The position numbers and the translations under genes were made by a program. The notes beneath the pieces are model-generated. The model was not told the origin of the DNA, did no database searches, and saw only the letters and a list, made by a program, of their open reading frames with translations. Of a DNA stretch of 64,000 bases, positions 1,920-41,246 are shown one piece after another (position 1 is the stretch's first letter; each line of letters begins with the position of its first letter). The stretch lies in contig JAAXCX010000001.1 in the NCBI GenBank assembly GCA_013036105.1, forward strand, positions 248,001-312,000, read 5' to 3'. This DNA is from Vulcanimicrobiota bacterium (GTDB lineage Bacteria; Vulcanimicrobiota; Vulcanimicrobiia; Vulcanimicrobiales; Vulcanimicrobiaceae).

Positions 1920-2899
1920 GCTGCCGCCGTGCGCCGGTCTCGAAGGTAGAGATAGAGAAACGCCGGCACGCCGATGAACGCAAGCAGCACGCCGATCGGG
2001 ATCTCCGCGGGTGCGAACAGCGTGCGGCTCAGCGCGTCGGCGACGATCGTCAACGCGGCGCCAAGCAGAGCCGACGCCGCGAGCACATACCGCGCATCGG
2101 ATCCGACCATGCGGCGCGCGATGTGCGGCACGATCAAACCGACGAAGCCGATCGTGCCGGAGAGCGTGACGGCGGAAGCGGCGAGCAGCGACGATGAAGC
2201 GAGGATCGTCCATTGCGCGCGGCCGACGTCAACGCCCACCGCCGCTGCCCGCGTGTCCCCTAAACGCAACGCATTGAGTGCCGGCGCGCTCAAGAGCGCC
2301 AAAACTACACCGAGAAACGCGTATGGCGCCGCGAAGAACAGGTCGCCCCACGAGCGTCCGGAGAGCGTGCCTGCCAGCCAACTGACGATCGCCGGCGCGC
2401 TGCCGGCGCCCTGCACGCGCGTTAATACCAGTGCGATGATCGCGGCGAAGAGCGACGAGAGCGAGACGCCCGCCAAAATGAGACGCGTCGCATCCAAACT
2501 CGCGCCGCGCCGCGCCAGCGCCGCGACCGTTATCGCGGTTGCCAACCCTGCTGCGAATCCGAGCGCGGGAACGGCCGCGGCCGCAACGCCGGCAGATATT
2601 GAAAGAACGATCGCAACCGCCGCGCCCGCGCTAACGCCGGTCAGATACGGATCCACCAGCGGATTGCGCAGCAATCCTTGCAGAAGCGCGCCCGCAATCG
2701 CCAGCGATGCCCCGACGAACGCGCCGATCGCAATCCGCGGAAGCCGCAGCTGCCAAACGATCGTCGCGATCTCACCGCTGTTGGGATGCAGCAGCGCGTT
2801 CCAGATCGCGGCCGGCCAAAGCACGGTACCGCCGACGAGCAGCGCTCCCGCCGCGACACCGAGCAATCCGGCGGCCAGCGCTGCGAAACGAAGAATCAC
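1916..2899 (-). CDS. btuC: FecCD/BtuC-family ABC permease
   Basis: Inner-membrane permease of the BtuCDF type, 327 residues and almost entirely hydrophobic, consistent with about ten membrane segments. Family motifs are visible: LPRIAIGAFVGASLAIAGAL followed by QGLLRNPLVDPYLTGVSAGA near residues 50-100, and GFVGLIVPHIARRMVG in the C-terminal half. The start is a GTG at 2899, one base after the TAG stop of the TonB receptor; the open frame upstream overlaps the receptor gene and was ignored. The gene overlaps btuD by 4 bp, so receptor, permease and ATPase form one transcript below the riboswitch. Confidence 0.9.
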   Translation of the reverse strand: MILRFAALAAGLLGVAAGALLVGGTVLWPAAIWNALLHPNSGEIATIVWQLRLPRIAIGAFVGASLAIAGALLQGLLRNPLVDPYLTGVSAGAAVAIVLSISAGVAAAAVPALGFAAGLATAITVAALARRGASLDATRLILAGVSLSSLFAAIIALVLTRVQGAGSAPAIVSWLAGTLSGRSWGDLFFAAPYAFLGVVLALLSAPALNALRLGDTRAAAVGVDVGRAQWTILASSSLLAASAVTLSGTIGFVGLIVPHIARRMVGSDARYVLAASALLGAALTIVADALSRTLFAPAEIPIGVLLAFIGVPAFLYLYLRDRRTAAA

Positions 2900-2900
2900 G

Positions 2901-4685
2901 CTAGTGCGTGGAAAGTTCGAACGCGAACGTGCGGCCGGGCATGGGGAACCCGCTGACCGCTTCGTAGCGCTCGTTTCCGATGTTGTACGCGCGCACTGTG
3001 AAGAGCACGTTGGGCGCCGCGCGCAGGGAGATGTAGGCGTCGGCGCGCGTAAATGCACTTGCGCCATGCGCTCCGGCGGAATGCGCCGACGCGCCCGCCG
3101 CCGCCACCAGACCTGTGCCGGCGTAATCAAGGCCGAGGTTTGTTGTCAGGACCGGATCGTCGGGAAGGCGCGACCGCGTGTCGAGATCTTGCGCCCGGTA
3201 GAGGTCGGTGAGATTGAATGAAGCCGTAAATCCGTGCAGCGGTTGCGTTTTGGCATCGAACGTCAGGCCTTCGATCAACGCATGTCCGATGTTCTCGGGC
3301 GCGAAGGTGAAGTTAACCGGATCGATCAAGGTCGTCACGATTAAATTGTTCGTGCGGTCGCCGAACCATCCGATCGATACTCCGCCAAAGGGCGCCGAAT
3401 CGACGAACGTAAGGTCGGCCACTTTCGCGCGCTCGGGCCTGAGCGCCGGATTACCGAAATCCGGAAAAAAGAGCTCGCTGGCGTTAGGCGCCCGGAACGC
3501 CGTCGCCAGATTCCCTTTGATCGATGCTTGCCCGGACAAATGTACGACGAAGCCGGCTGACGGCGAGAATTCGCCGCCGAGCGAACCGTCGCGCTCGCCC
3601 CGGAGACCCGCGTATGCGCTTCCCCAGCGTGTCGTGAATTTTTGCTGTACGTACGCCGCGGCTTGCGCGAAGCTGTTTGTCGAAAACAACCCGCCCGCAT
3701 CGGCGCGCACGGTTCCGCGCGCCAGATCGATGCCGTAGAGCAGCTGCTCGTTTTCGCCGCTGACGACGTTGCGTGCGCCGAAGTCAAACCGCCCCTCGGT
3801 ATTTAACGATTCCGTGGTTTGAAAACAATTCAGATCGTTGACTGCATCGCACGCGAACGTGATCGCTTGGCGCGTGCCGCCGAACTGCAGGGTCATTTCA
3901 GAGCGTATCGTTTTGCGCGTAAGCGTAAGGTTCGCGCCCGAATTGAGATCGGATTCCCGCGAAGTCGGAGAGAGGAAGTCGGTCGGGCCCGCCGCGCCGA
4001 GGCGATCGCCTGAAATCTCGGCGCGCACGATCGCATCAAACGAACCGAGCCGGCTGCCGAAATTCGCATGCAGGTCAGAGCTCTGGTAATCGCTGTCGGG
4101 CCGTGTAGAACCATCGGCGAGCGTGAAATCGTTACGCGCGACGATTCTGGAAATTTGGATGTTCGGCGTGCGCGCCTCGAGAGAAGCATCCCCGTAGGAG
4201 CCCGCGCGCAGCGTCGCTCCGTCCGTAGATTTCCGCTCGGTGATAACGTTGATGATGCCGCCAATCGCGCCGGTGCCGTACAGCGTCGAACCGCCGCCCT
4301 CGACGACCTCGATACGGTCGACGCCGGTCGTCGGCATCGTGGCGAGCTCGACCGAGTTAGCAAACGATCCTGGAGCCGGCAGGCCGTCGATCAGCACGAG
4401 CACTTGCGAACTGTTGTTGCCGCGCACGCCGTATTCCGCGCTGCTCCCTATCGGCCCGTTAGGCGAATACTCGAACGCCGGCAGGTTTTCGAGCGCATCG
4501 CCCACGGTGCGATATCCGCGGCGCTCGATCTCTGCACGCGTGACGACGTACGTCGTGCGCGCGGAATTTTTCAGCGTACTGTCGGTGCGATCGCTCGTGT
4601 AAACGTGGGCGATTTCCGGAAGCGGCGACGGCGAAGGCGACGCGGCGGCAGCGCCGAGCGTAATAACCAGAAGAAACGAGAACAT
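2901..4685 (-). CDS. btuB: TonB-dependent outer-membrane receptor, BtuB-like
   Basis: Outer-membrane receptor, 594 residues, expected to bind cobalamin and pass it to the periplasm using TonB energy. A signal peptide (residues 1-16, FSFLLVITLGAAAA) precedes a plug domain with SAEYGVRGNNSSQVLVLIDG (about 82-101) and STLYGTGAIGGIINVIT (133-149), both classic plug motifs. The rest is a beta-barrel. Length is close to the usual 600-odd residues of BtuB. Start ATG at 4685 follows an AAGGG ribosome-binding site and lies downstream of a cobalamin riboswitch on the same strand, which is the main evidence for B12 as substrate. Confidence 0.92.
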   Translation of the reverse strand: MFSFLLVITLGAAAASPSPSPLPEIAHVYTSDRTDSTLKNSARTTYVVTRAEIERRGYRTVGDALENLPAFEYSPNGPIGSSAEYGVRGNNSSQVLVLIDGLPAPGSFANSVELATMPTTGVDRIEVVEGGGSTLYGTGAIGGIINVITERKSTDGATLRAGSYGDASLEARTPNIQISRIVARNDFTLADGSTRPDSDYQSSDLHANFGSRLGSFDAIVRAEISGDRLGAAGPTDFLSPTSRESDLNSGANLTLTRKTIRSEMTLQFGGTRQAITFACDAVNDLNCFQTTESLNTEGRFDFGARNVVSGENEQLLYGIDLARGTVRADAGGLFSTNSFAQAAAYVQQKFTTRWGSAYAGLRGERDGSLGGEFSPSAGFVVHLSGQASIKGNLATAFRAPNASELFFPDFGNPALRPERAKVADLTFVDSAPFGGVSIGWFGDRTNNLIVTTLIDPVNFTFAPENIGHALIEGLTFDAKTQPLHGFTASFNLTDLYRAQDLDTRSRLPDDPVLTTNLGLDYAGTGLVAAAGASAHSAGAHGASAFTRADAYISLRAAPNVLFTVRAYNIGNERYEAVSGFPMPGRTFAFELSTH

Positions 4686-4714: not shown

Positions 4715-4876
4715 GTGTGCGTCGTTTGCGCTGGTATCCTGACTCGCGGATCGTAGCCTCGTGCCCGTGCCTTCCCCCCAAAGGAGTGACATCGGGCGGC
4801 TCCCCGCATACAGTGGCGCGACCGTGCCGGCATTCGACCGGCTTCCCGCGCACAAACGTGTATGCCGGGTTACCGC
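4715..4876 (-). promoter_or_regulatory. Cobalamin riboswitch upstream of btuB
   Basis: Read on the minus strand, the leader contains the conserved cobalamin-riboswitch blocks in order: GGGAA with the AATGCCGG-containing arm, CGCGCCACTGTATGCGG (CCACTGT core), a GTCACT block, GGGGAAGGC, and the B12-box AGTCAGGATACCAGCG near 4726-4742 (consensus AGxCAGGAGACC, one mismatch). The aptamer ends about 30-40 bases before the btuB start. A CAACC/GGGTTG pairing near the ribosome-binding site suggests translational control, but the expression platform is inferred. Ends are approximate to about 10 bases. Confidence 0.93.
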
Positions 4877-29005: not shown

Positions 29006-30292
29006 CTAATACAGCCTGAGATACGCCCGGTGCTCCCACGGATGAACCGCACGACGGTAGCGTTCGTACTCCTCGAGTTTGGCGTCGCGGAACGCGTGAT
29101 AGATGTGGTCGCCGAGAGCGGCACGGATGACTGGATCGTTATCGAGCTCGCTGATCGCCTGACGTAGCGATTTTGGAAGCGTGCCGATACCGCGTTCGTG
29201 CCGTTCGCGCTCGGCGAGTTCGTACGTTGAACCGGTGAGCGGATCGCCCGGGAGGCGGTGCTGATCGACTCCGTCCGTGAGCGCTCCAAGCAACACTGCC
29301 AGCGAGAGATACGGATTGCCGGCCGCGTCGGGACTGCGCATCTCGAGCTGCGGCGGGTCTTGGCGCGGAACGCGGACTAACGCGTTCGCGCTGCGCTCGG
29401 ACCAGACGGTATAGATCGGCGCGTCCCACGCGTTGACCAAGCGTTTGTACGAATTGACGGTGGAGTTGCAGATGGCGGTAAGCGCGCCCGCATGCGCCAG
29501 CAGGCCGCCGATCATGTAGAGTACTTCCGGCTGCTGCTCGCTTGCGACGCGGAAGTTGACATGCAGCCCGCTCCCGGCGCGATCTTCGAGCGGCTTGGGC
29601 ATGAACGTCGCTTCCAGTCCGCGCGCGGCGGCCACATGCTTGGCGATCGAGCGCAGCGTGAGCAGCGCGTCCGCCGCCGCCAGCGGATCGCTGTGCGGAA
29701 AATCGATCTCGTGCTGTCCCGGGCTATGCTCGTGATGCGAGCTCGCGACCGCCACGCCCATCGCTTGCAGCGCCGCGACGATCGCGCTGCGCGCATCTTC
29801 ACCGCGATCGTTGGCGGAAAAATCGAAATACGATCCGACGTCGGCCGTCTTGGTCGAGCCATACTCACTGTCGAGGGCTTCGAAGAGAAAGAACTCGACT
29901 TCAAGTGCGACCGCGATGCCCGCAAGCGGGCCTTTCGCCTCTTCGATCGCGCGTCTGAGAGTAGTTCGCGGGCAACCTTCGAACGGCGAACCGTCCGGCA
30001 TAGCGATATCGCAGAGCAAACGCGCTTCGGGCATTTCCGGCGTCGACCACGGGTAGAGCGCGAAGGTTGAGGGATCGGGGCGCAGCACCATGTCGAGCTC
30101 TTCGCCGCGCACGAATCCGTCGATCGAGCCGCCGTCGAACGTCACCTTGCCGTCGAGCGCGGCTTCGAGTTCGGTCGCCGGGATGGAAACATTCTTGGCG
30201 ACGCCGAGCACATCGACGAACGACAGGCGCACGAACTTTACGTTGCGATCCTTGGCGAGGCGCAAAACGTCGCGTTTAGCCGGTGAGTGCAT
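29006..30292 (-). CDS. Glutamine-synthetase-like protein (second copy)
   Basis: 428-residue member of the glutamine synthetase family, distinct from the glnA at the window start. Features: VKFVRLSFVDVLGVAKNVSI and TFDGGSIDGF (the usual FDGSSI has Ser to Gly), ALEVEFFLFE and SSHHEHSPGQHEIDF (metal and substrate glutamates), GSGLHVNF, NSTVNSYKRL and LEMRSPDAAGNPYLSL. It lacks the GSI-beta insertion, as GSI-alpha enzymes do. It may be a true glutamine synthetase or a gamma-glutamyl ligase acting on another amine. It overlaps the PucR-type regulator by 17 bp and is last in the M-box operon. Confidence 0.85.
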   Translation of the reverse strand: MHSPAKRDVLRLAKDRNVKFVRLSFVDVLGVAKNVSIPATELEAALDGKVTFDGGSIDGFVRGEELDMVLRPDPSTFALYPWSTPEMPEARLLCDIAMPDGSPFEGCPRTTLRRAIEEAKGPLAGIAVALEVEFFLFEALDSEYGSTKTADVGSYFDFSANDRGEDARSAIVAALQAMGVAVASSHHEHSPGQHEIDFPHSDPLAAADALLTLRSIAKHVAAARGLEATFMPKPLEDRAGSGLHVNFRVASEQQPEVLYMIGGLLAHAGALTAICNSTVNSYKRLVNAWDAPIYTVWSERSANALVRVPRQDPPQLEMRSPDAAGNPYLSLAVLLGALTDGVDQHRLPGDPLTGSTYELAERERHERGIGTLPKSLRQAISELDNDPVIRAALGDHIYHAFRDAKLEEYERYRRAVHPWEHRAYLRLY

Positions 30293-31424
30293 CGATTGCG
30301 ATCGCCATTCTCAGCGTGAGCTGGTCCCCAGGGTCGTCCAATTTGCAGCCGCAGATCTCGCCGATTTGGCGCAGCCGGTAGAAGACCGTGTGGCGGTGGA
30401 CGTTTAATTCCGCCGCGGCCGTCTTAACGTTTTCGCCGACCGAGAAATACAATCGAAGCGTGCGTTCCAACTCGGTCTGATGCTTTTCGTCGTAAGCGCG
30501 CAGCGGAGCGAGAATACGCCGCGCAAAATCGCGCATCGTATCGGCGCCGCCGCCGGAAAGCAGCAGCGGATACGCGCCGAGCTCTTCGTAGACGCCGACG
30601 CGCCCGGGGCCGTAGAGCCGGCGCGAGATCGTAAGCGCGGCTTCGGCTTGCGCAAGCGAACGGTGGGCGTCTGCAACCGGCGCTCGCGTACCGACTCCAC
30701 CGCTGATGCGAACGTCGAGTTCTTTCTTCTGAAGGTTTCGCTGCAGCATGGCGGCAGCGGTGCGCGTGTTCGACGCGTCCACCTCGCGCGAAGCCGGAAC
30801 AAAGATAACGAGTGCGCCTCTGCGTTCGAGTACACCCGCCTCTCCCTCTCCGCCGCGAAACGCGTCGAGAGCGGCGGCGCGAAAAGCTCCGGGCTCGCCG
30901 GTTTCGGTTTCGAGCGCGACGGCGACGTAGTGCGTCGCGAGCACGATGCCGCGCGCCGCCGCGTCGTCGCGAACTGCCGTCGCGTCGGGATAAGCTTCGG
31001 CGACGAGCTGCTCCCAAAATGTTCGCCGCCGGCCGGGTTGCGCGCCGGATTCGCGCGCGAGCTCGACGGCGATAGCGCTTGCGGTCAAACGGGCGGCGTA
31101 TTCGCACGTGTCGAGATCGCTGCTGCCGAAAATCGACAGGCGTCCTAAATTCGAGTCGCCGCTGACGATCGCGATCGTGCGTCCCGCGTATCCGTTACGC
31201 AGTTTTTGGAATTCCGCGGTCGCATTGTGTGCGAGCAGGGGCTGTACGCTGCTGGGCATGCCCGTGCCGCCGGCCGCTGCAAGGTGCCGCCACTGCGAGT
31301 CTTCCACGAGCACGCCGACGCTCGCGCGTTTGGCAAGGTGGCCGGCCAGTGCTTTCGGGCCGCCGCCGCCCGCCGCTATGCGCGCGAGATCTTCGGCAAA
31401 TGCGACCAATTCGTCGGCCGTCAT
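30276..31424 (-). CDS. PucR-family transcriptional regulator
   Basis: 382-residue regulator with an N-terminal GAF-like region (about 1-120), a central degenerate GGDEF-like region of the CdaR/PucR kind (VRISGGVGTRAPVADAHRSL, followed by AEAALTISRRLYGP) and a C-terminal HTH: TLRLYFSVGENVKTAAAELN then VHRHTVFYRLRQIGEICG. PucR relatives usually act as activators of nearby nitrogen or purine genes. It overlaps the downstream glutamine-synthetase-like gene by 17 bp, which is its likeliest target, and starts 21 bp after the Nramp-related gene. Confidence 0.85.
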   Translation of the reverse strand: MTADELVAFAEDLARIAAGGGGPKALAGHLAKRASVGVLVEDSQWRHLAAAGGTGMPSSVQPLLAHNATAEFQKLRNGYAGRTIAIVSGDSNLGRLSIFGSSDLDTCEYAARLTASAIAVELARESGAQPGRRRTFWEQLVAEAYPDATAVRDDAAARGIVLATHYVAVALETETGEPGAFRAAALDAFRGGEGEAGVLERRGALVIFVPASREVDASNTRTAAAMLQRNLQKKELDVRISGGVGTRAPVADAHRSLAQAEAALTISRRLYGPGRVGVYEELGAYPLLLSGGGADTMRDFARRILAPLRAYDEKHQTELERTLRLYFSVGENVKTAAAELNVHRHTVFYRLRQIGEICGCKLDDPGDQLTLRMAIAIDALTG

Positions 31425-31445
31425 GCCCGGAGGGTTCGCCGCTTG

Positions 31446-32735
31446 CTAGGCCGTTCCGCCGAAGACGAGCGTCAAAGCGTAGTAGATGGAGAGCGCGCCG
31501 ACCAGCGCCACGGTCGCCCACGCGACCGTATTTCCGAACCACCTATTGGTGTGGCGGCCCATCACTCCGCGCTTGTTGACGATGATCAGCATCAGCACGA
31601 GCTCGGGCGGCAGCAAGATTCCCTGTGCGACCTGCGCGTAAAAGATCAGATTCAGCAGCGGCAGATGTGGAATCAAAACGAGCGCCCCACCCGCGATCAA
31701 CCCGATCGCGAAAAGCGTGAAGAAGACGGGCGCTTCGGAAAACTTGCGATCGAGCGCCGCTTCGAAGCCAAACGCTTCGCAGATCACGTAACTGGTCGAG
31801 AGCGGCAAAACCGTTGCCGTAAAGAGCCCGGCGTTGAAGATGCCCAGTGCGAAAATGATCGACGCCGCGGCACCCGCGAGCGGCCGCAGCGCCGCCGCGT
31901 AATCGGCTGCTTGCAGCGGGGCGATGTGCGCCCCGTGACGGTTGGCCGTAAAAATCGTCGCCGCATTGGCGATGATCATGAAGCCCGCAATAGCGATCGC
32001 CAGAATCGATCCGCTGATCACGTCCGCGCGCGCCAAGCTGAGCTCGCGCTCGTCCGAACCTTTTTCGACGACCGCCGACTGTAAGAAGAATTGCATATAG
32101 GGCGAAATGGTCGTGCCGATCAGGCCGACGACCATCACCAGATACGCGCGGTTGTTGAAATCGAATGCCGGTACGACGGCGCCGTGGGCTACTGCGCCCC
32201 AGTTCGGGTGCGCTAATATGGCCGAGGCGATATAGCAAAAATAGATCAGCGAAAAACACACGAAGGCGCGGTCGATGCTCTTGCTGTTAAAGCCGAACAC
32301 CAGGATGAGCACGATGAGCATTGCCACAGGAACGGCGATGAAGCGCGAGATATGAAAAATCTCCGATGCGGCGGCAATGCCCGCAAACTCGGTTGCCGTG
32401 ATCACCAGATTTATGGCAAAAAATGCGGCCATCGCGAAGAACGAAATGCGGACGCCGAAATTCTCGCGAATCAGCGCCGCCAGCCCTTTGCCGGTCACGG
32501 CTGCCATCCGCGTCGCCATCTCTTGCACGACGATCAGCGCGAGTGCCAGCGGAATCAGCACCCATAGAATGCGATAACCGAAATGTGCGCCCGCTTGGGA
32601 GTAGGTCGTAATGCCGCCGACGTCGTTGCCCGCCGACGCCGTGATGAATCCCGGTCCCAGAACCGCGAGAAGCAGAACGAGGCTGCGCCAGCGCCAGCGC
32701 CTGCGCTTGCGCTTGCGAGCGGCCTCTGGAGCCAT
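31446..32735 (-). CDS. Nramp-related divalent metal transporter, probable Mg2+ importer
   Basis: 429-residue inner-membrane protein with about eleven helices after a very basic N-terminus. The first helix has GPGFITASAGNDVGGITTYS where Mn/Fe Nramps have DPGN, so the coordinating asparagine is missing. The sixth helix reads GTTISPYMQFF instead of the usual A-M-P-H type motif. These changes match the Nramp-related Mg2+ transporters, and the gene lies behind an M-box Mg2+ riboswitch, 3 bp after a MgtE-N/CBS protein. Mg2+ specificity is inferred, not shown; Mn2+ or other ions remain possible. Confidence 0.85.
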   Translation of the reverse strand: MAPEAARKRKRRRWRWRSLVLLLAVLGPGFITASAGNDVGGITTYSQAGAHFGYRILWVLIPLALALIVVQEMATRMAAVTGKGLAALIRENFGVRISFFAMAAFFAINLVITATEFAGIAAASEIFHISRFIAVPVAMLIVLILVFGFNSKSIDRAFVCFSLIYFCYIASAILAHPNWGAVAHGAVVPAFDFNNRAYLVMVVGLIGTTISPYMQFFLQSAVVEKGSDERELSLARADVISGSILAIAIAGFMIIANAATIFTANRHGAHIAPLQAADYAAALRPLAGAAASIIFALGIFNAGLFTATVLPLSTSYVICEAFGFEAALDRKFSEAPVFFTLFAIGLIAGGALVLIPHLPLLNLIFYAQVAQGILLPPELVLMLIIVNKRGVMGRHTNRWFGNTVAWATVALVGALSIYYALTLVFGGTA

Positions 32736-32738
32736 GAC

Positions 32739-34034
32739 CTAGTCCTTTACCGCACGGCTCGTGCGCCGCGTCGGAGTGATGCGCGGAAGTTCTTTGGCGA
32801 GATCTGCGGGCATGATTGCGTCGATAGCGTCGTCGACCGTCACGATGCCGAGCATCAGCCCGTCGGGATCGACCACGGGCACCGCGAGCAGATCGTAACG
32901 CGCGATCGTCGCCGCAACGTCGCGCGCTTGCATCGCCGGCGCGATCGTTACGATATCGTCTTCCATGATGCGTTCGATCACGTCGTCTTGGGGTGCGAGC
33001 AGAAGCGCGCGCAGCGTCAATACGCCCAGGAGCCGCCGGTCCTTGTCGACGACATACAGATAGTAGATGAATTCCGTTTCGGGCGCGATTTCGCGAATCT
33101 TGTGGATGGTCTGCTCCGCGGTGCGATGCGGAAGAATCCAGACGTAATCGGTCGTCATCAATCCGCCGGCCGTGTCGTCCTGGTACTTCACGAGTTCGCG
33201 CAGCTCGCCCGCAGTGGATTGATTCATCTCCGCGAGCAGCTCGCTTTGCTGATCCTCCGGCAGGTCACCCAGCAGATCGGCCGCGTCGTCGGAGTCCATC
33301 TCTTCGATGATGTCGGCGGCGCGCTCGCGCCCGATGTCGTCGATGATCGCGCGCTGCTTCTCGGGTTCGAGATGTTCGAGCGCGTCCGCCGCGGTTTCGT
33401 CGTCGAGCGAATGGATGATTGCGGCGGCTTCGCGCGCGGAAAGATCGCTGATGACCTCGGCCAATTCGCTCGGATGCAATCGCGTCAGCTTGCTCTCTTT
33501 GACGGCAAGCTGAACTTGCGAGGGATTTTTCTCGCGAATCGGAGCCACCGAATCCCACGCGATCATCGCGCGCGGCACGCGCCGGTACACCCACGGCGTA
33601 AAGCGTTTGCCGATCCCTCGTAAGCCCAGACGGCGCAACAATCCGCTGACCCCGACGTCGGCGGCAACGACACGCAGTTTACCGCCCGTATTGGCGATCT
33701 CGATGTCGTTGATGCGCACGACCTTGCGGCCGTCGACGTCGACAATTTGTTTGTCGAGAAGATCCAGGACCAGGTAGAGCGCCTCGTCGTCGGGCGGCGC
33801 GGCGACCTTGGGGGCGGCGTTGAGCGCGACGGCGCCATCGGCGTCAACGTCGGAGACGGTATCCATCGGCGCGAAGCGCGGACCTTGACTCGTCTTGATA
33901 ATCAGTCCGTCAACTTCCGGAAACGTTTGGTCCGGATTGTTGACCAGGAAGTCGGTGACCCGGCCGATGGGCAATTCGTTGACCGTCGCACGCCGCCCGA
34001 CGAGTTCGGAGATAAATCCGTCCTGAAAAGCCAT
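32739..34034 (-). CDS. PRC-barrel/MgtE-N/CBS protein without a membrane domain
   Basis: 431-residue soluble protein. Residues about 8-75 look like a PRC barrel (NELPIGRVTDFLVNN, then VDGLIIKTSQGPRFAPMDTV). A superhelical MgtE N-domain follows (about 165-270) with repeated acidic units such as LAEVISDLSAREAAAIIHSL and AADLLGDLPEDQQSELL. A CBS pair fills 285-415 (GGLMTTDYVWILPHRTAEQT; LLAVPVVDPDGLMLGIVTVD). The MgtE channel domain is absent; the protein stops after the CBS pair. It probably senses Mg2+ and gates or regulates the Nramp-related transporter encoded 3 bp downstream. GGGAGGTG ribosome-binding site before ATG 34034. Confidence 0.87.
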   Translation of the reverse strand: MAFQDGFISELVGRRATVNELPIGRVTDFLVNNPDQTFPEVDGLIIKTSQGPRFAPMDTVSDVDADGAVALNAAPKVAAPPDDEALYLVLDLLDKQIVDVDGRKVVRINDIEIANTGGKLRVVAADVGVSGLLRRLGLRGIGKRFTPWVYRRVPRAMIAWDSVAPIREKNPSQVQLAVKESKLTRLHPSELAEVISDLSAREAAAIIHSLDDETAADALEHLEPEKQRAIIDDIGRERAADIIEEMDSDDAADLLGDLPEDQQSELLAEMNQSTAGELRELVKYQDDTAGGLMTTDYVWILPHRTAEQTIHKIREIAPETEFIYYLYVVDKDRRLLGVLTLRALLLAPQDDVIERIMEDDIVTIAPAMQARDVAATIARYDLLAVPVVDPDGLMLGIVTVDDAIDAIMPADLAKELPRITPTRRTSRAVKD

Positions 34035-34054
34035 GCCGCACCTCCCTTCCGCGC

Positions 34055-34089
34055 AAAAATAAAACCGGTTCCGCTGGGCGGCGACCGGT
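34055..34089 (-). terminator. Intrinsic terminator, expression platform of the M-box
   Basis: On the minus strand ACCGGT (34089-34084) pairs with ACCGGT (34069-34064), enclosing an inner CCGC-CCA-GCGG hairpin, and is followed directly by TTTTATTTTT. It lies between the M-box aptamer and the MgtE-like gene, as expected for a riboswitch that ends transcription when Mg2+ is high. An antiterminator pairing was not worked out. Confidence 0.75.
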
Positions 34090-34119
34090 CGTGGCGTGGA
34101 ACGGCGAGCGTTCTATACC

Positions 34120-34295
34120 CCAATCGCGTCTGCTTTGGCACCACGCGCCGTAAAGCCCCAACAGGGCTTAGCCGCATTAGACGACGCCTTAGGTCGGCGA
34201 AGTCTGGTCTACCCGCTTGGCGTCTCTCGACGTTTCCGGGCAGCGGCCTGTGTTTCGCGTGGACGCCTCACCTAGCGAGGTATCCTCACCTAAGT
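34120..34295 (-). promoter_or_regulatory. M-box (ykoK) magnesium riboswitch
   Basis: Minus-strand leader with the conserved M-box blocks in order: TAGGTGAGGC (34277-34266 region), GGCCGCTGCCCGGAAACGTC, AGACGCCAAGCGGGTAGACCAG, a CTAAGG block, TCTAATGCGGCT, and near the 3' end GGTGCCAAAGCAGACGCGATTG. These match the Mg2+-sensing M-box consensus blockwise, including the terminal AAAGC-xx-CGATTG. A second TTAGGTGAGG just upstream makes the 5' boundary uncertain. It controls the MgtE-like/Nramp operon through the terminator at 34055-34089. Confidence 0.9.
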
Positions 34296-37963: not shown

Positions 37964-39316
37964 TCAGCTTGAGGCGAGCAGTTGGCGGCGCGTCCAACTT
38001 TCGCCGCGCAACTTTATTGCGGTCGCGACGGCGCGTGCGCTCCAGGCGACGATCCAGGCGACGGGCACTCCATACAAACCGATGTGTAAGACTTTGATGC
38101 AGAGATAGCACACCGGCACCACGAGGACGCCCGTGAGTATGCCGACCGTGAGCGAAAAACGCGTGTCGCCCGACGCGCGTATCGGCGACATGGACACCAT
38201 CGCGTAACCTTTGACCGGCAGCGTGAGCATGTGCAGCGCCAGCGGCACCGCCGCGGCGGATGCGACGACGGCGTTGAGCGTGAAGATATAAGCGAGCGGC
38301 CACGCCAGCATCGCGCATACGGCCCCGGTCAGCGTCGTGAGCCAGAACGAAAGGATTCGCGCCCGCGAAAAAAACGAACGCGCGCCCTCGACGTCGCGCG
38401 CTCCCAGGCGTTGTCCGATCACGGTTTGTGTGGCGGATTGCAGTGGGCTCGGAACGACAAACGTGAGATCCGAGGCGACGTTGAGCGCGCGGAACGCAGA
38501 GATCGCGACTGCACCCAGCGGCGCGAGCATCGCGACGATAAACGAGTCAGGAGCGATCACGGCAAAGAGGAACACGACCTCCGGCAATCCCAGACGAGCG
38601 CATTCCAACGCCAGCCGCCAATTGAGGTCGAACGAAGCAAAGACGCGGTAAATCGGACGCCTCAGCGTGTAGATAATCGCGCAGACGCAAGCGATGCTTT
38701 CCGAAAGCAGCGACGATATGCCCGCGCCTTCGATGCCGAGCGGGTGGTGCGTGCCCCACCCTAAGGCCAAGATCAGCAGTAGCGGAATGTGCACGATGTT
38801 GACGACGGCCAGCACGAGCACGCCTAATACGCGGTTGCCGGCCGCACCTAAGCCGACGATCAGCGTTCCGGAAATGGCGATCGGCAGAAGCGAAAAACAC
38901 CGCAAGGCCAGATAGATCGAACTGCTGTGCGCGCTCGCGAGCTGTCCCACCATCGCGTGTATGACGACGGGCGCCAACGGGATGCTCGCGAGCGCCGCAA
39001 CGATCGCGCCGAGAAATGGAATGATGAATCCCGCGCGCACCGTGCTGCCGTAAGCGTCCAAGTCACGGGCTCCGACGCGCTGCGCAGCGATGATCGACAT
39101 GCCGCTGAAAAAACCGAAGATCGAAAATGCGACCGCCGTAAAAACGGTTGCCGCACCCGTCACTCCGGCCAGCGCAACGGCGCCCAGGCTGCCGATCGCA
39201 ATCGTGTCGACCACGCCCAAGAGTTGGTCGCCGAGCATCGTGAAAGCGATAGGAAGCGAAAGGCGCCGGATTGCGGCGCCCATGTTCCTGTGGTCGACGA
39301 GCATTCCGCTTTCCAT
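37964..39316 (-). CDS. MATE-family multidrug/metabolite exporter
   Basis: 450-residue inner-membrane protein with twelve predicted helices in two MATE halves (MGAAIRRLSLPIAFTMLGDQ near the N-terminus; second half beginning about residue 230 with LECARLGLPEVVFLFAVIAP). ATG at 39316 shares one base with the stop of the kynureninase-like gene; a later ATG at 39304 is possible. The operon context with tryptophan 2,3-dioxygenase suggests export of a kynurenine-pathway product, but this is inference. Confidence 0.87.
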   Translation of the reverse strand: MESGMLVDHRNMGAAIRRLSLPIAFTMLGDQLLGVVDTIAIGSLGAVALAGVTGAATVFTAVAFSIFGFFSGMSIIAAQRVGARDLDAYGSTVRAGFIIPFLGAIVAALASIPLAPVVIHAMVGQLASAHSSSIYLALRCFSLLPIAISGTLIVGLGAAGNRVLGVLVLAVVNIVHIPLLLILALGWGTHHPLGIEGAGISSLLSESIACVCAIIYTLRRPIYRVFASFDLNWRLALECARLGLPEVVFLFAVIAPDSFIVAMLAPLGAVAISAFRALNVASDLTFVVPSPLQSATQTVIGQRLGARDVEGARSFFSRARILSFWLTTLTGAVCAMLAWPLAYIFTLNAVVASAAAVPLALHMLTLPVKGYAMVSMSPIRASGDTRFSLTVGILTGVLVVPVCYLCIKVLHIGLYGVPVAWIVAWSARAVATAIKLRGESWTRRQLLASS

Positions 39317-40461
39317 CACGAACGAATCTCGTCCAGTGCTTCGAAGAACGCGCCGATCTCGTCGTCGGTCGTGTAGAAGTGCGGTCCGATGCGGATGCCG
39401 CAGCCGGGACGGTAGTCCACAAAGATGCGGCGCGCGATCAACTCGCGGTACGCTTCCTGCGCCCCGGGGAATTCGATTGCGATCCAGCCCGTGCGCTTTT
39501 CCGCTTCCAGCGGCGTGTTCACTTGCAAACCGCGTTCGAGCGCGCTCTGCGCGATCAAATTGGTCAGCCGTACGTTGTGCGCGCGAATTTGCGGCACGCC
39601 CACTTCGCGAATCAGGTCGTGTCCAGGTTTCGCCGCCATGTAGCCCGGAATCGTCGGCGTTCCCGTTCCCCAGCGGTACATGGACGGAGCCCACACCATC
39701 GGCGCCGGCTCGAACGAGAAGGGACGCGCATGCGCCATCCATCCGGTGACGGCCGGTTCGAGCCGTTCGCGCAGCTCGGGCTTGACGTAGATCCAGCCGC
39801 AGCCTGCCGAACCGCACAACCACTTGTGGCTTCCGCCCGTCACGATGTCGAGATCCCACTCGGTCACGTCGTAAGGATAGACGCCGGTCGTTTGGTAGGC
39901 GTCGACGCAGAGCAGCGTACCGGTCTTGCGGCAATGCGCTTGGATCGCGCGCACGTCGCACAGCGCGCCGGAAAGATAATACGCGTGCGAGAGCACGGCG
40001 ATCGCGGTGCGTTCGGTGATTGCGCCGATGATGCGCTCGGCTGGGACGGTGCGCCCGTCGTCGGAGGGAACGATGCGCGGCTGCGCGCCGAAGCGCTGCC
40101 ACTCGCTCCAAACGTACGTCAGCGAAGGAAACTGCAAGGCCTCGTACACGACCTCATTGCGCGGCGCTTCGAAACGCAGTGAAGTCGCGAGCGCGGCTTG
40201 CAGCACCGAAACGTTGGGACCCAGGAAGATGCTCCCGGCCGGCGCGCCGACGATCGCGCCGATGCCGTCGGCGATTTCCGCGATGCGCGGAAGCCACAGT
40301 TCCCACGCCTCCGGGCCCTCGGCTTGCCATTCGTCCGCGTACTGCTCGAGCGCCGCCTTCGCACCGCGCGGCGCCGCGCCCATCGAGTGGCTCACCAGGT
40401 ACCTTGACGTCTCGAGAATCGGAAAACGATCTCGCAACACCGGCGCTGTAGCAGTCTGCAT
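39316..40461 (-). CDS. kynU: Class V aminotransferase fold enzyme, probable kynureninase
   Basis: 381-residue PLP enzyme of fold type I. PLP-site motifs: VDAYQTTGVYPYDV (PLP-binding aspartate) and GGSHKWLCGSAGCGWIYV with the internal-aldimine lysine. It begins RDRFPILETSRYLVSHSMG, as kynureninases and related class V enzymes do. Being directly after tryptophan 2,3-dioxygenase (one-base overlap), kynureninase is the best assignment: kynurenine to anthranilate plus alanine. A class V enzyme of another specificity is the alternative. ATG 40461; upstream in-frame sequence lies in the dioxygenase gene. Confidence 0.78.
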   Translation of the reverse strand: MQTATAPVLRDRFPILETSRYLVSHSMGAAPRGAKAALEQYADEWQAEGPEAWELWLPRIAEIADGIGAIVGAPAGSIFLGPNVSVLQAALATSLRFEAPRNEVVYEALQFPSLTYVWSEWQRFGAQPRIVPSDDGRTVPAERIIGAITERTAIAVLSHAYYLSGALCDVRAIQAHCRKTGTLLCVDAYQTTGVYPYDVTEWDLDIVTGGSHKWLCGSAGCGWIYVKPELRERLEPAVTGWMAHARPFSFEPAPMVWAPSMYRWGTGTPTIPGYMAAKPGHDLIREVGVPQIRAHNVRLTNLIAQSALERGLQVNTPLEAEKRTGWIAIEFPGAQEAYRELIARRIFVDYRPGCGIRIGPHFYTTDDEIGAFFEALDEIRS

Positions 40462-41246
40462 CAATAGCCCTTTCCTAAATGCGTCCGGACTTCCCACAAC
40501 TCCGGGAAAAAGCGGTTGTCGAGCGTCGTGGCCAGATAGGTCACGCCGAGCGAGCCGCCCGTCCCGCGCCTCGCTCCGATCATGCGCTCGACCATGCGGA
40601 TATGGCGTCCGCGCCACAGTAAAAAGCGTTCGTCGAACTCGATCAGCTGCTCCAGCAACATGTAGAGATCGTAGTGTTCTTTGCTTCCCGAGTAAATCGT
40701 GCGAAACGTTTCGATCAGTTCGTCGTGCGTACCGACGGCAAAGCCGCGGCTGCGCAGATACTCTTTGACGCGATCGTAGAGCGACGGTTCGGCGAGCCGC
40801 CGTTCCAAACGAGCGCGCTGCTCGGCGTTCATCTGGATATGTTTGAGCGTCTCCGTATTACGTAATCCCGCGATGAATTCGATCTCGCGAAACTGCAGCG
40901 ATTGAAAGCCGCTGGCCGGATTGAGGTGGTCGCGGAACGCGTTGAATTCGTGCGGGGTCATCGTTTCGAGGATGTCGACCTGGGTTTCGATCAAGCGTTG
41001 GATCGGATCCATGCGTCGGAAATGTTTGGCAACGCGCAATAAGTCGCCGGCCGTCAGATCGCGCATGACCGCCTCGATCTCGTGCAGCAGCTGCTTGAAC
41101 CAGAGCTCGTACACCTGATGGATGATGATGAAGAGCATTTCGTCGTGGTGCGGCGGCGACGAAAGCGGCTGCTGCAGCGCGAGCAGCTCGTCAACCTGCA
41201 GGTACGAGCCGTAAGAGAGCCGCTCGTTGCCGGAATCGGGCGTCAT
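40461..41246 (-). CDS. kynA: Tryptophan 2,3-dioxygenase
   Basis: Heme enzyme that opens the indole ring of tryptophan to N-formylkynurenine. 261 residues. Motifs: LSYGSYLQVDELLALQ, DEMLFIIIHQVYELWFKQLL with the distal histidine (His43), RNTETLKHIQ, and LLWRGRHIRMVERMIGARRG with the proximal heme histidine (His215) followed by GTGGSLGVTYL. First gene of a three-gene operon with the kynureninase-like enzyme and MATE exporter. No kynurenine formamidase is seen in the window. Confidence 0.93.
   Translation of the reverse strand: MTPDSGNERLSYGSYLQVDELLALQQPLSSPPHHDEMLFIIIHQVYELWFKQLLHEIEAVMRDLTAGDLLRVAKHFRRMDPIQRLIETQVDILETMTPHEFNAFRDHLNPASGFQSLQFREIEFIAGLRNTETLKHIQMNAEQRARLERRLAEPSLYDRVKEYLRSRGFAVGTHDELIETFRTIYSGSKEHYDLYMLLEQLIEFDERFLLWRGRHIRMVERMIGARRGTGGSLGVTYLATTLDNRFFPELWEVRTHLGKGY

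Follow-up and report, generated by a model that had tools for sequence, protein, structure and literature searches.

Why should a protein built like the cytosolic domain of the Mg2+ channel MgtE be encoded without its channel, and directly in front of a carrier of the Nramp family? This question is raised by a gene cluster within a stretch of 64,000 nucleotides from a Vulcanimicrobiota bacterium (contig JAAXCX010000001.1, positions 248,001 to 312,000; here called the window, whose own numbering is used throughout). A first-pass annotation had read the cluster as a two-protein Mg2+ import system. Our analysis leads to the following answer, which we regard as probable: the cluster represents a Mg2+-starvation operon for an NRMT-type importer and a detached sensor that throttles it. 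At ample cytosolic Mg2+, the M-box riboswitch in the leader would fold, a terminator would form and transcription would stop, while at low Mg2+ the leader would be read through and sensor and carrier would be made together. The NRMT-type Nramp carrier would import Mg2+. The sensor, presumably a Mg2+-responsive N-CBS module of MgtE type freed from its channel, would be attached via tandem PRC barrels to the carrier on its cytosolic side and most likely throttle import as Mg2+ rises.

The leader was analyzed for the M-box aptamer and the intrinsic terminator that the first-pass annotation had named. Indeed, cmscan detected a Mg2+ riboswitch aptamer of the M-box family (RF00380), complete over model positions 1-169 of 169, at 34112-34286(-), which scores 130.7 bits and thus far above the gathering score of 44 (E 4e-29), and reaches 193 bits with a covariance model built in the present analysis. 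It is the only M-box that the genome search found. The terminator was likewise located: between the aptamer and the start codon of the sensor gene, at 34055-34090(-), the 28-nt hairpin GACCGGTCGCCGCCCAGCGGAACCGGTT (-14.9 kcal/mol) is followed by the T run TTATTTTT, providing the expression platform. As a simple terminator scanner missed this element, we used a scripted search for a hairpin plus T run with random stretches as control. A hairpin of -8 kcal/mol or below was found 3' of the M-box in 52 of 58 cases (window and related loci), versus 51 of 290 random stretches from the same DNA. Folding of the whole leader yielded a minimum free energy not more stable than that of shuffled sequences (z -1.19) and was left out of the argument. 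The arrangement resembles the M-box (ykoK) riboswitch of B. subtilis, which also combines a complete aptamer with a transcription-terminator platform, but controls mgtE, whereas the M-box of the window controls the sensor and the Nramp carrier. By analogy with the riboswitch family, the M-box of the window is expected to act in the Mg2+-OFF direction.

Pairs of this kind are not new, but were first described in 2014, when Shin et al. reported M-boxes ahead of Nramp-related genes, named these genes NrmT and demonstrated Mg2+ rescue for two members from C. acetobutylicum (PMC4072509). Most NrmT genes adjoin a homologue of the MgtE cytoplasmic domain, often under M-boxes, and the authors speculated on feedback regulation by this MgtE-like partner, leaving its role open (PMC4072509). 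That the C. acetobutylicum carriers function without the partner counts against our explanation (PMC4072509). In the window, a gene for an MgtE cytosolic domain lies beside an NRMT gene with an M-box in front, i.e. the arrangement that defines an NrmT/MgtE-fragment operon, and carrier clade, partner type, riboswitch and gene adjacency are common to both. The window pair differs in coming from a new phylum, Eremiobacterota, and in having a partner with tandem PRC barrels; it is also unlike the C. acetobutylicum locus, where the partner is divided between two genes, and unlike that of Acidobacterium capsulatum, which has no M-box. The term PRC is absent from the 2014 paper (PMC4072509), and a literature search covering only a minority of subscription papers retrieved no paper combining PRC-barrel, MgtE and CBS. 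New here are the spread and uniformity of the pair, and the features that the sensor retains or lacks.

The sensor gene (32739-34034(-)) encodes 431 amino acids, and the assignment of its product relies on Pfam, PDB profile matches, AlphaFold and Foldseek. PRC, MgtE_N and two CBS matches were each obtained above the Pfam cut-offs: MgtE_N comprises residues 186-287 (33174-33479(-); PF03448, 91.3 bits, cut-off 25.9), and the CBS pair extends over residues about 288-410 in two stretches (32805-33173(-); PF00571, 62.2 bits). The MgtE channel domain PF01769 is absent from the protein and from the genome in our searches, and the match to full-length MgtE (TIGR00400) stays at 199.7 bits, under the cut-off of 232.75. 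No other MgtE_N was found in the genome. The protein matches the MgtE cytosolic domain 2yvy with E 5e-67, and its model superimposes on the Mg2+-bound form of this domain with a TMt of 0.84 (Foldseek). A PRC/MgtE-N/CBS protein without the channel had been proposed by the first-pass annotation; the domains and the loss of the channel hold, while the single PRC barrel has to be replaced by two barrel-like units in tandem, which the AlphaFold models place at residues about 1-75 and 88-165. The second barrel with its tail (residues 88-165; 33540-33773(-)) matches PF05239 just above the cut-off at residues 91-149. A Pfam PRC match was obtained for 35 of 43 partners scanned individually.

To assess residue conservation in the sensor, 100 partners were aligned with T. 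thermophilus MgtE. At the positions equivalent to E59, D91, D95, D246, D247 and D250, an acidic residue is present in about 90, 93, 99, 91, 97 and 89% of the partners, respectively. The position of D226 is occupied by Asp in 63% and by Asn in 25%, which counts against our explanation. Most of these seven positions we take to be Mg2+ ligands at the N-CBS interface of MgtE. At the plug-helix positions E258 and D259, the partners mostly carry Ala, Thr, Lys or Arg instead. The ATP site of MgtE consists of Tyr170, Arg187, Asp188, Asn203 and Phe227, and the F227A exchange abolished ATP binding (PMC5529423). The window sensor retains the equivalents of Y170 and R187, but carries A, E and L in place of D188, N203 and F227. 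Since the ATP-stacking Phe227 is Leu in 81% of the partners and F227A abolished ATP binding (PMC5529423), ATP control has probably been weakened or lost in the sensor. Compared to T. thermophilus MgtE (2yvx/2yvy), the sensor thus has the N domain, the CBS pair and the interface acids, but lacks the channel and the plug-helix acids, carries Leu for Phe227 and has gained PRC barrels.

Conservation within the sensor is highest in the second PRC barrel, where residues 91-120 have a mean majority frequency of 0.70 among the 100 partners; D94, Q96, R107, N109, D110, R134, R135 and W160 are near invariant in this barrel and its tail. A prediction of sensor and carrier as a complex, suggested by the first-pass annotation, was run as a tethered pair. 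A single TAG separates the two genes, which share a reading frame, so that the read-through product could be modeled; this is a modeling device and implies no claim about the organism. Natural fusions of sensor and carrier were also sought among the loci having both genes in frame, all of which carry at least one stop in between. In the tethered model (pLDDT 86.2, pTM 0.71), the carrier part aligns to EleNRMT with a TMt of 0.91 and the sensor part to the MgtE cytosolic domain with 0.82; pLDDT and pTM of the sensor alone are 80.2 and 0.52. Presence of the carrier raises pLDDT by about 2-3 in the N-CBS part, by 5 in the first PRC barrel and by 19-30 at residues 131-160, the tail of the second barrel (68/50/63 alone, 87/80/84 with the carrier), a comparison confounded by the tether and by 60 versus 43 sensor rows in the alignments, and lacking an inter-chain error estimate. 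The gain fits docking of the sensor on the carrier via this tail, but is only suggestive, because the alignment depths differ and the tether biases the result, and no atomic interface is claimed. A more specific version of our explanation, to which we would give somewhat less than an even chance, is that a modular Mg2+ sensor has moved from the MgtE channel to the NRMT carrier, where it would act in trans: the PRC barrels would dock, Mg2+ at the N-CBS interface would inhibit import and ATP control would have been dropped. In that case, a separate regulatory subunit would place an Nramp carrier under feedback control. The near-invariant residues of the second PRC barrel and tail, together with the N-CBS acids, are targets for mutation by which docking and sensing could be probed separately.

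Next to structure, gene neighbourhood bears on the proposed partnership. Among 149 Eremiobacterota genomes surveyed at a match threshold of E 1e-10, a sensor match was obtained in 132 and an Nramp match in 132. In 67 of the 123 sensor places compared in this phylum, a strong Nramp is encoded no more than 1 kb from the sensor, 63 times in tandem with the sensor followed by the carrier and four times convergently. The convergent neighbours, found in genomes G016, G024, G025 and G137 (loci L070 and L071 in the last two), represent adjacency without an operon. About 45% of the sensor places are more than 1 kb away from a carrier, some of them on short contigs, and we count this against our explanation. 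Unlinked sensors with an M-box were also observed (L033, weak; L036, L039, L043), and an M-box leads the sensor or the carrier in 88 of the 123 M-boxes of the phylum. In a bacteria-wide survey, GTDB representative genomes were scanned once with an NRMT alignment and the best 80 loci were evaluated, which by record title belong to Eremiobacterota, Firmicutes, Bacteroidetes, Spirochaetes, Nitrospirae, Omnitrophota, Kapabacteria and others. A partner is present in 68 of these best 80 NRMT loci, almost without exception immediately 5' of the carrier gene in the same orientation and mostly fused to PRC, so that the pair is co-conserved, as the reading of the first-pass annotation requires; the 12 loci without a partner in view count against our explanation. 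Our own covariance model detected an M-box in 34 of the best 80 loci, in 24 cases with a partner and in 10 before an NRMT gene without a partner in view. The pair is thus the rule across many phyla.

Downstream of the carrier gene, a PucR-type regulator (30276-31424(-); PF13556, PF17853) follows after 21 bp, and a glutamine-synthetase-like paralogue (29006-30292(-); PF00120, 304 bits) follows with a gap of -17 bp. The suggestion that the transcript may continue into these genes is weak: the order sensor-(carrier)-PucR-glutamine synthetase on one strand is kept in 42 of 43 loci of the class, yet only 15 of those 43 have PucR at a distance of 150 bp or less. In this genus, the genes may share a transcript. 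The synthetase had also been tied in as a Mg2+-requiring enzyme, but nothing links it to Mg2+ control, and another glutamine synthetase of the same genome scores higher. With 428.8 bits against 304, the latter also led us to reject the window enzyme as the only one of the genome. Alternatively, the sensor might act not on the carrier but on another target, e.g. PucR or glutamine synthetase, or serve as a cytosolic Mg2+ buffer or chaperone. Sensor, PucR and glutamine synthetase stay together without an adjoining carrier, e.g. in L032, L038, L040 and L044, and co-expression of the partner did not improve Mg2+ rescue by the A. capsulatum carrier (PMC4072509). The latter result, obtained with a carrier that transports mainly Mn2+, also counts against our explanation. 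The earlier reading as a two-protein import system is thus supported in part: M-box control, NRMT-type carrier, detached sensor and co-conservation hold, while gating of the carrier by the sensor is only presumed. On the other side, the association with PucR and glutamine synthetase was seen only in Eremiobacterota loci, outside of which the sensor accompanies NRMT without either gene, and four of the five unlinked carriers read have an M-box of their own (L047, L048, L049 and L050; none seen in L051). We consider action on another target unlikely, albeit the strongest of the alternatives.

The carrier gene (31446-32735(-); 429 aa) starts 3 bp after the sensor gene and encodes an Nramp (PF01566, 287.6 bits) that lacks DPGN, exactly as first annotated. 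Its closest solved relative is EleNRMT of Eggerthella lenta (7qia; E 1.7e-95 versus 2.7e-24 for MntH), with a TMt of 0.91 in Foldseek and 43% identity in the structural alignment. EleNRMT is a demonstrated Mg2+ transporter, and NRMT activity goes along with a DxxG-TxxA/T motif (PMC8806188). The window carrier has NDVGG in TM1, which agrees with DxxG, and D.GG is present at TM1 in all 107 loci tabulated. TM6 reads TTISPY instead of the MntH-type AxxMPH; the Thr of TxxA/T is kept, but the last position is Ser rather than the Ala of EleNRMT, and Tyr instead of Trp follows the Pro. Ser at a position where the NRMT consensus is Ala or Thr counts against our explanation; the variant occurs in 39 of 54 M-box-linked homologues. 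From family knowledge, we infer that Mg2+ is the substrate. The EleNRMT paper treats no partner protein and mentions neither CBS nor genomic context (PMC8806188).

An importer of mainly Mn2+, or of Mn2+ and Mg2+, whose MgtE-like partner senses Mn2+ or acts as a chaperone, is slightly less likely still. The A. capsulatum carrier transports mainly Mn2+: its rescue of a Mn2+ defect was complete, whereas that of a Mg2+ defect was confined to low millimolar Mg2+ (PMC4072509). The genome of the window encodes two Nramps, the second of which also lacks the DPGN and MPH residues, and no MntH-type Nramp was seen in it. However, the A. capsulatum gene has no M-box (PMC4072509), whereas the window gene is under one, and this Mg2+ aptamer points to Mg2+ together with the finding that CorA, the MgtE channel and MgtA were not detected in the assembly (95% complete). 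This absence, for which the assembly alone is no proof, is credible because the same pattern extends across the class: among 117 genomes, a strong NRMT was found in 103 and the sensor in 107, an MgtE channel above cut-off in 0 and CorA in 17. Owing to the relatedness of the genomes, we gave no weight to a Fisher test of NRMT versus MgtE channel (p about 1e-6). A large bacterial class without a detectable MgtE channel and with little CorA thus seems to rely on the sensor/carrier pair, and in our explanation of a Mg2+-starvation operon the NRMT carrier would be the main identifiable Mg2+ importer of the cell. As a separate observation, the second Nramp (L154:1423-2757(-); G000:C3:1514-2611) has the non-canonical motifs DDDPSG and TTITPY and adjoins a thiC-like gene.

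A chance neighbourhood of a decayed MgtE remnant and an unrelated Nramp, to which the missing channel domain might point, is highly improbable and was rejected because the partners are uniform and conserved. The 100 aligned partners, which come from many phyla, share an intact architecture and keep the acids and the PRC signature; in addition, the tandem order is maintained and the pair is co-conserved across phyla. For the MgtE fragment next to NrmT, whose function has been a question since 2014, our data sharpen, but do not solve, the issue of whether such a detached domain gates the carrier.

M-boxes of relatives also lead other genes. One family of about 640 amino acids (L155:512-2554, L156:164-2155, L164:2138-4099, L165:2356-4470, L167:550-2430, L169:266-2191) has signal-peptide-like N termini, a hydrophobic last residue and 48-58% identity to its first member, and no Pfam or PDB match was obtained. 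By sequence, these proteins look like outer-membrane proteins and would be candidate outer-membrane Mg2+ channels. A further set of genes near M-boxes (L163:525-2174 and 2149-3513; L168:912-2561; L171:953-2347) includes a second Nramp-like protein of about 550 amino acids led by M-boxes. In L163 its gene is followed by an OprB-family porin gene (PF04966), and in L171 an OprB porin gene lies downstream of the M-box. This arrangement is reminiscent of the Mn2+ porin MnoP, which works with MntH.

Elsewhere in the window, MATE-efflux-like and kynureninase-like genes were recognized by reading of the sequences at 37964-40617(-), and a tryptophan-2,3-dioxygenase-like gene in relatives (e.g. L038:2193-2963), which suggests a tryptophan-degradation neighbourhood. 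Finally, a cobalamin riboswitch (4733-4847(-), 64.1 bits) lies where a TonB-receptor-like gene begins, and genes for an ABC permease and an ATPase come after this gene.
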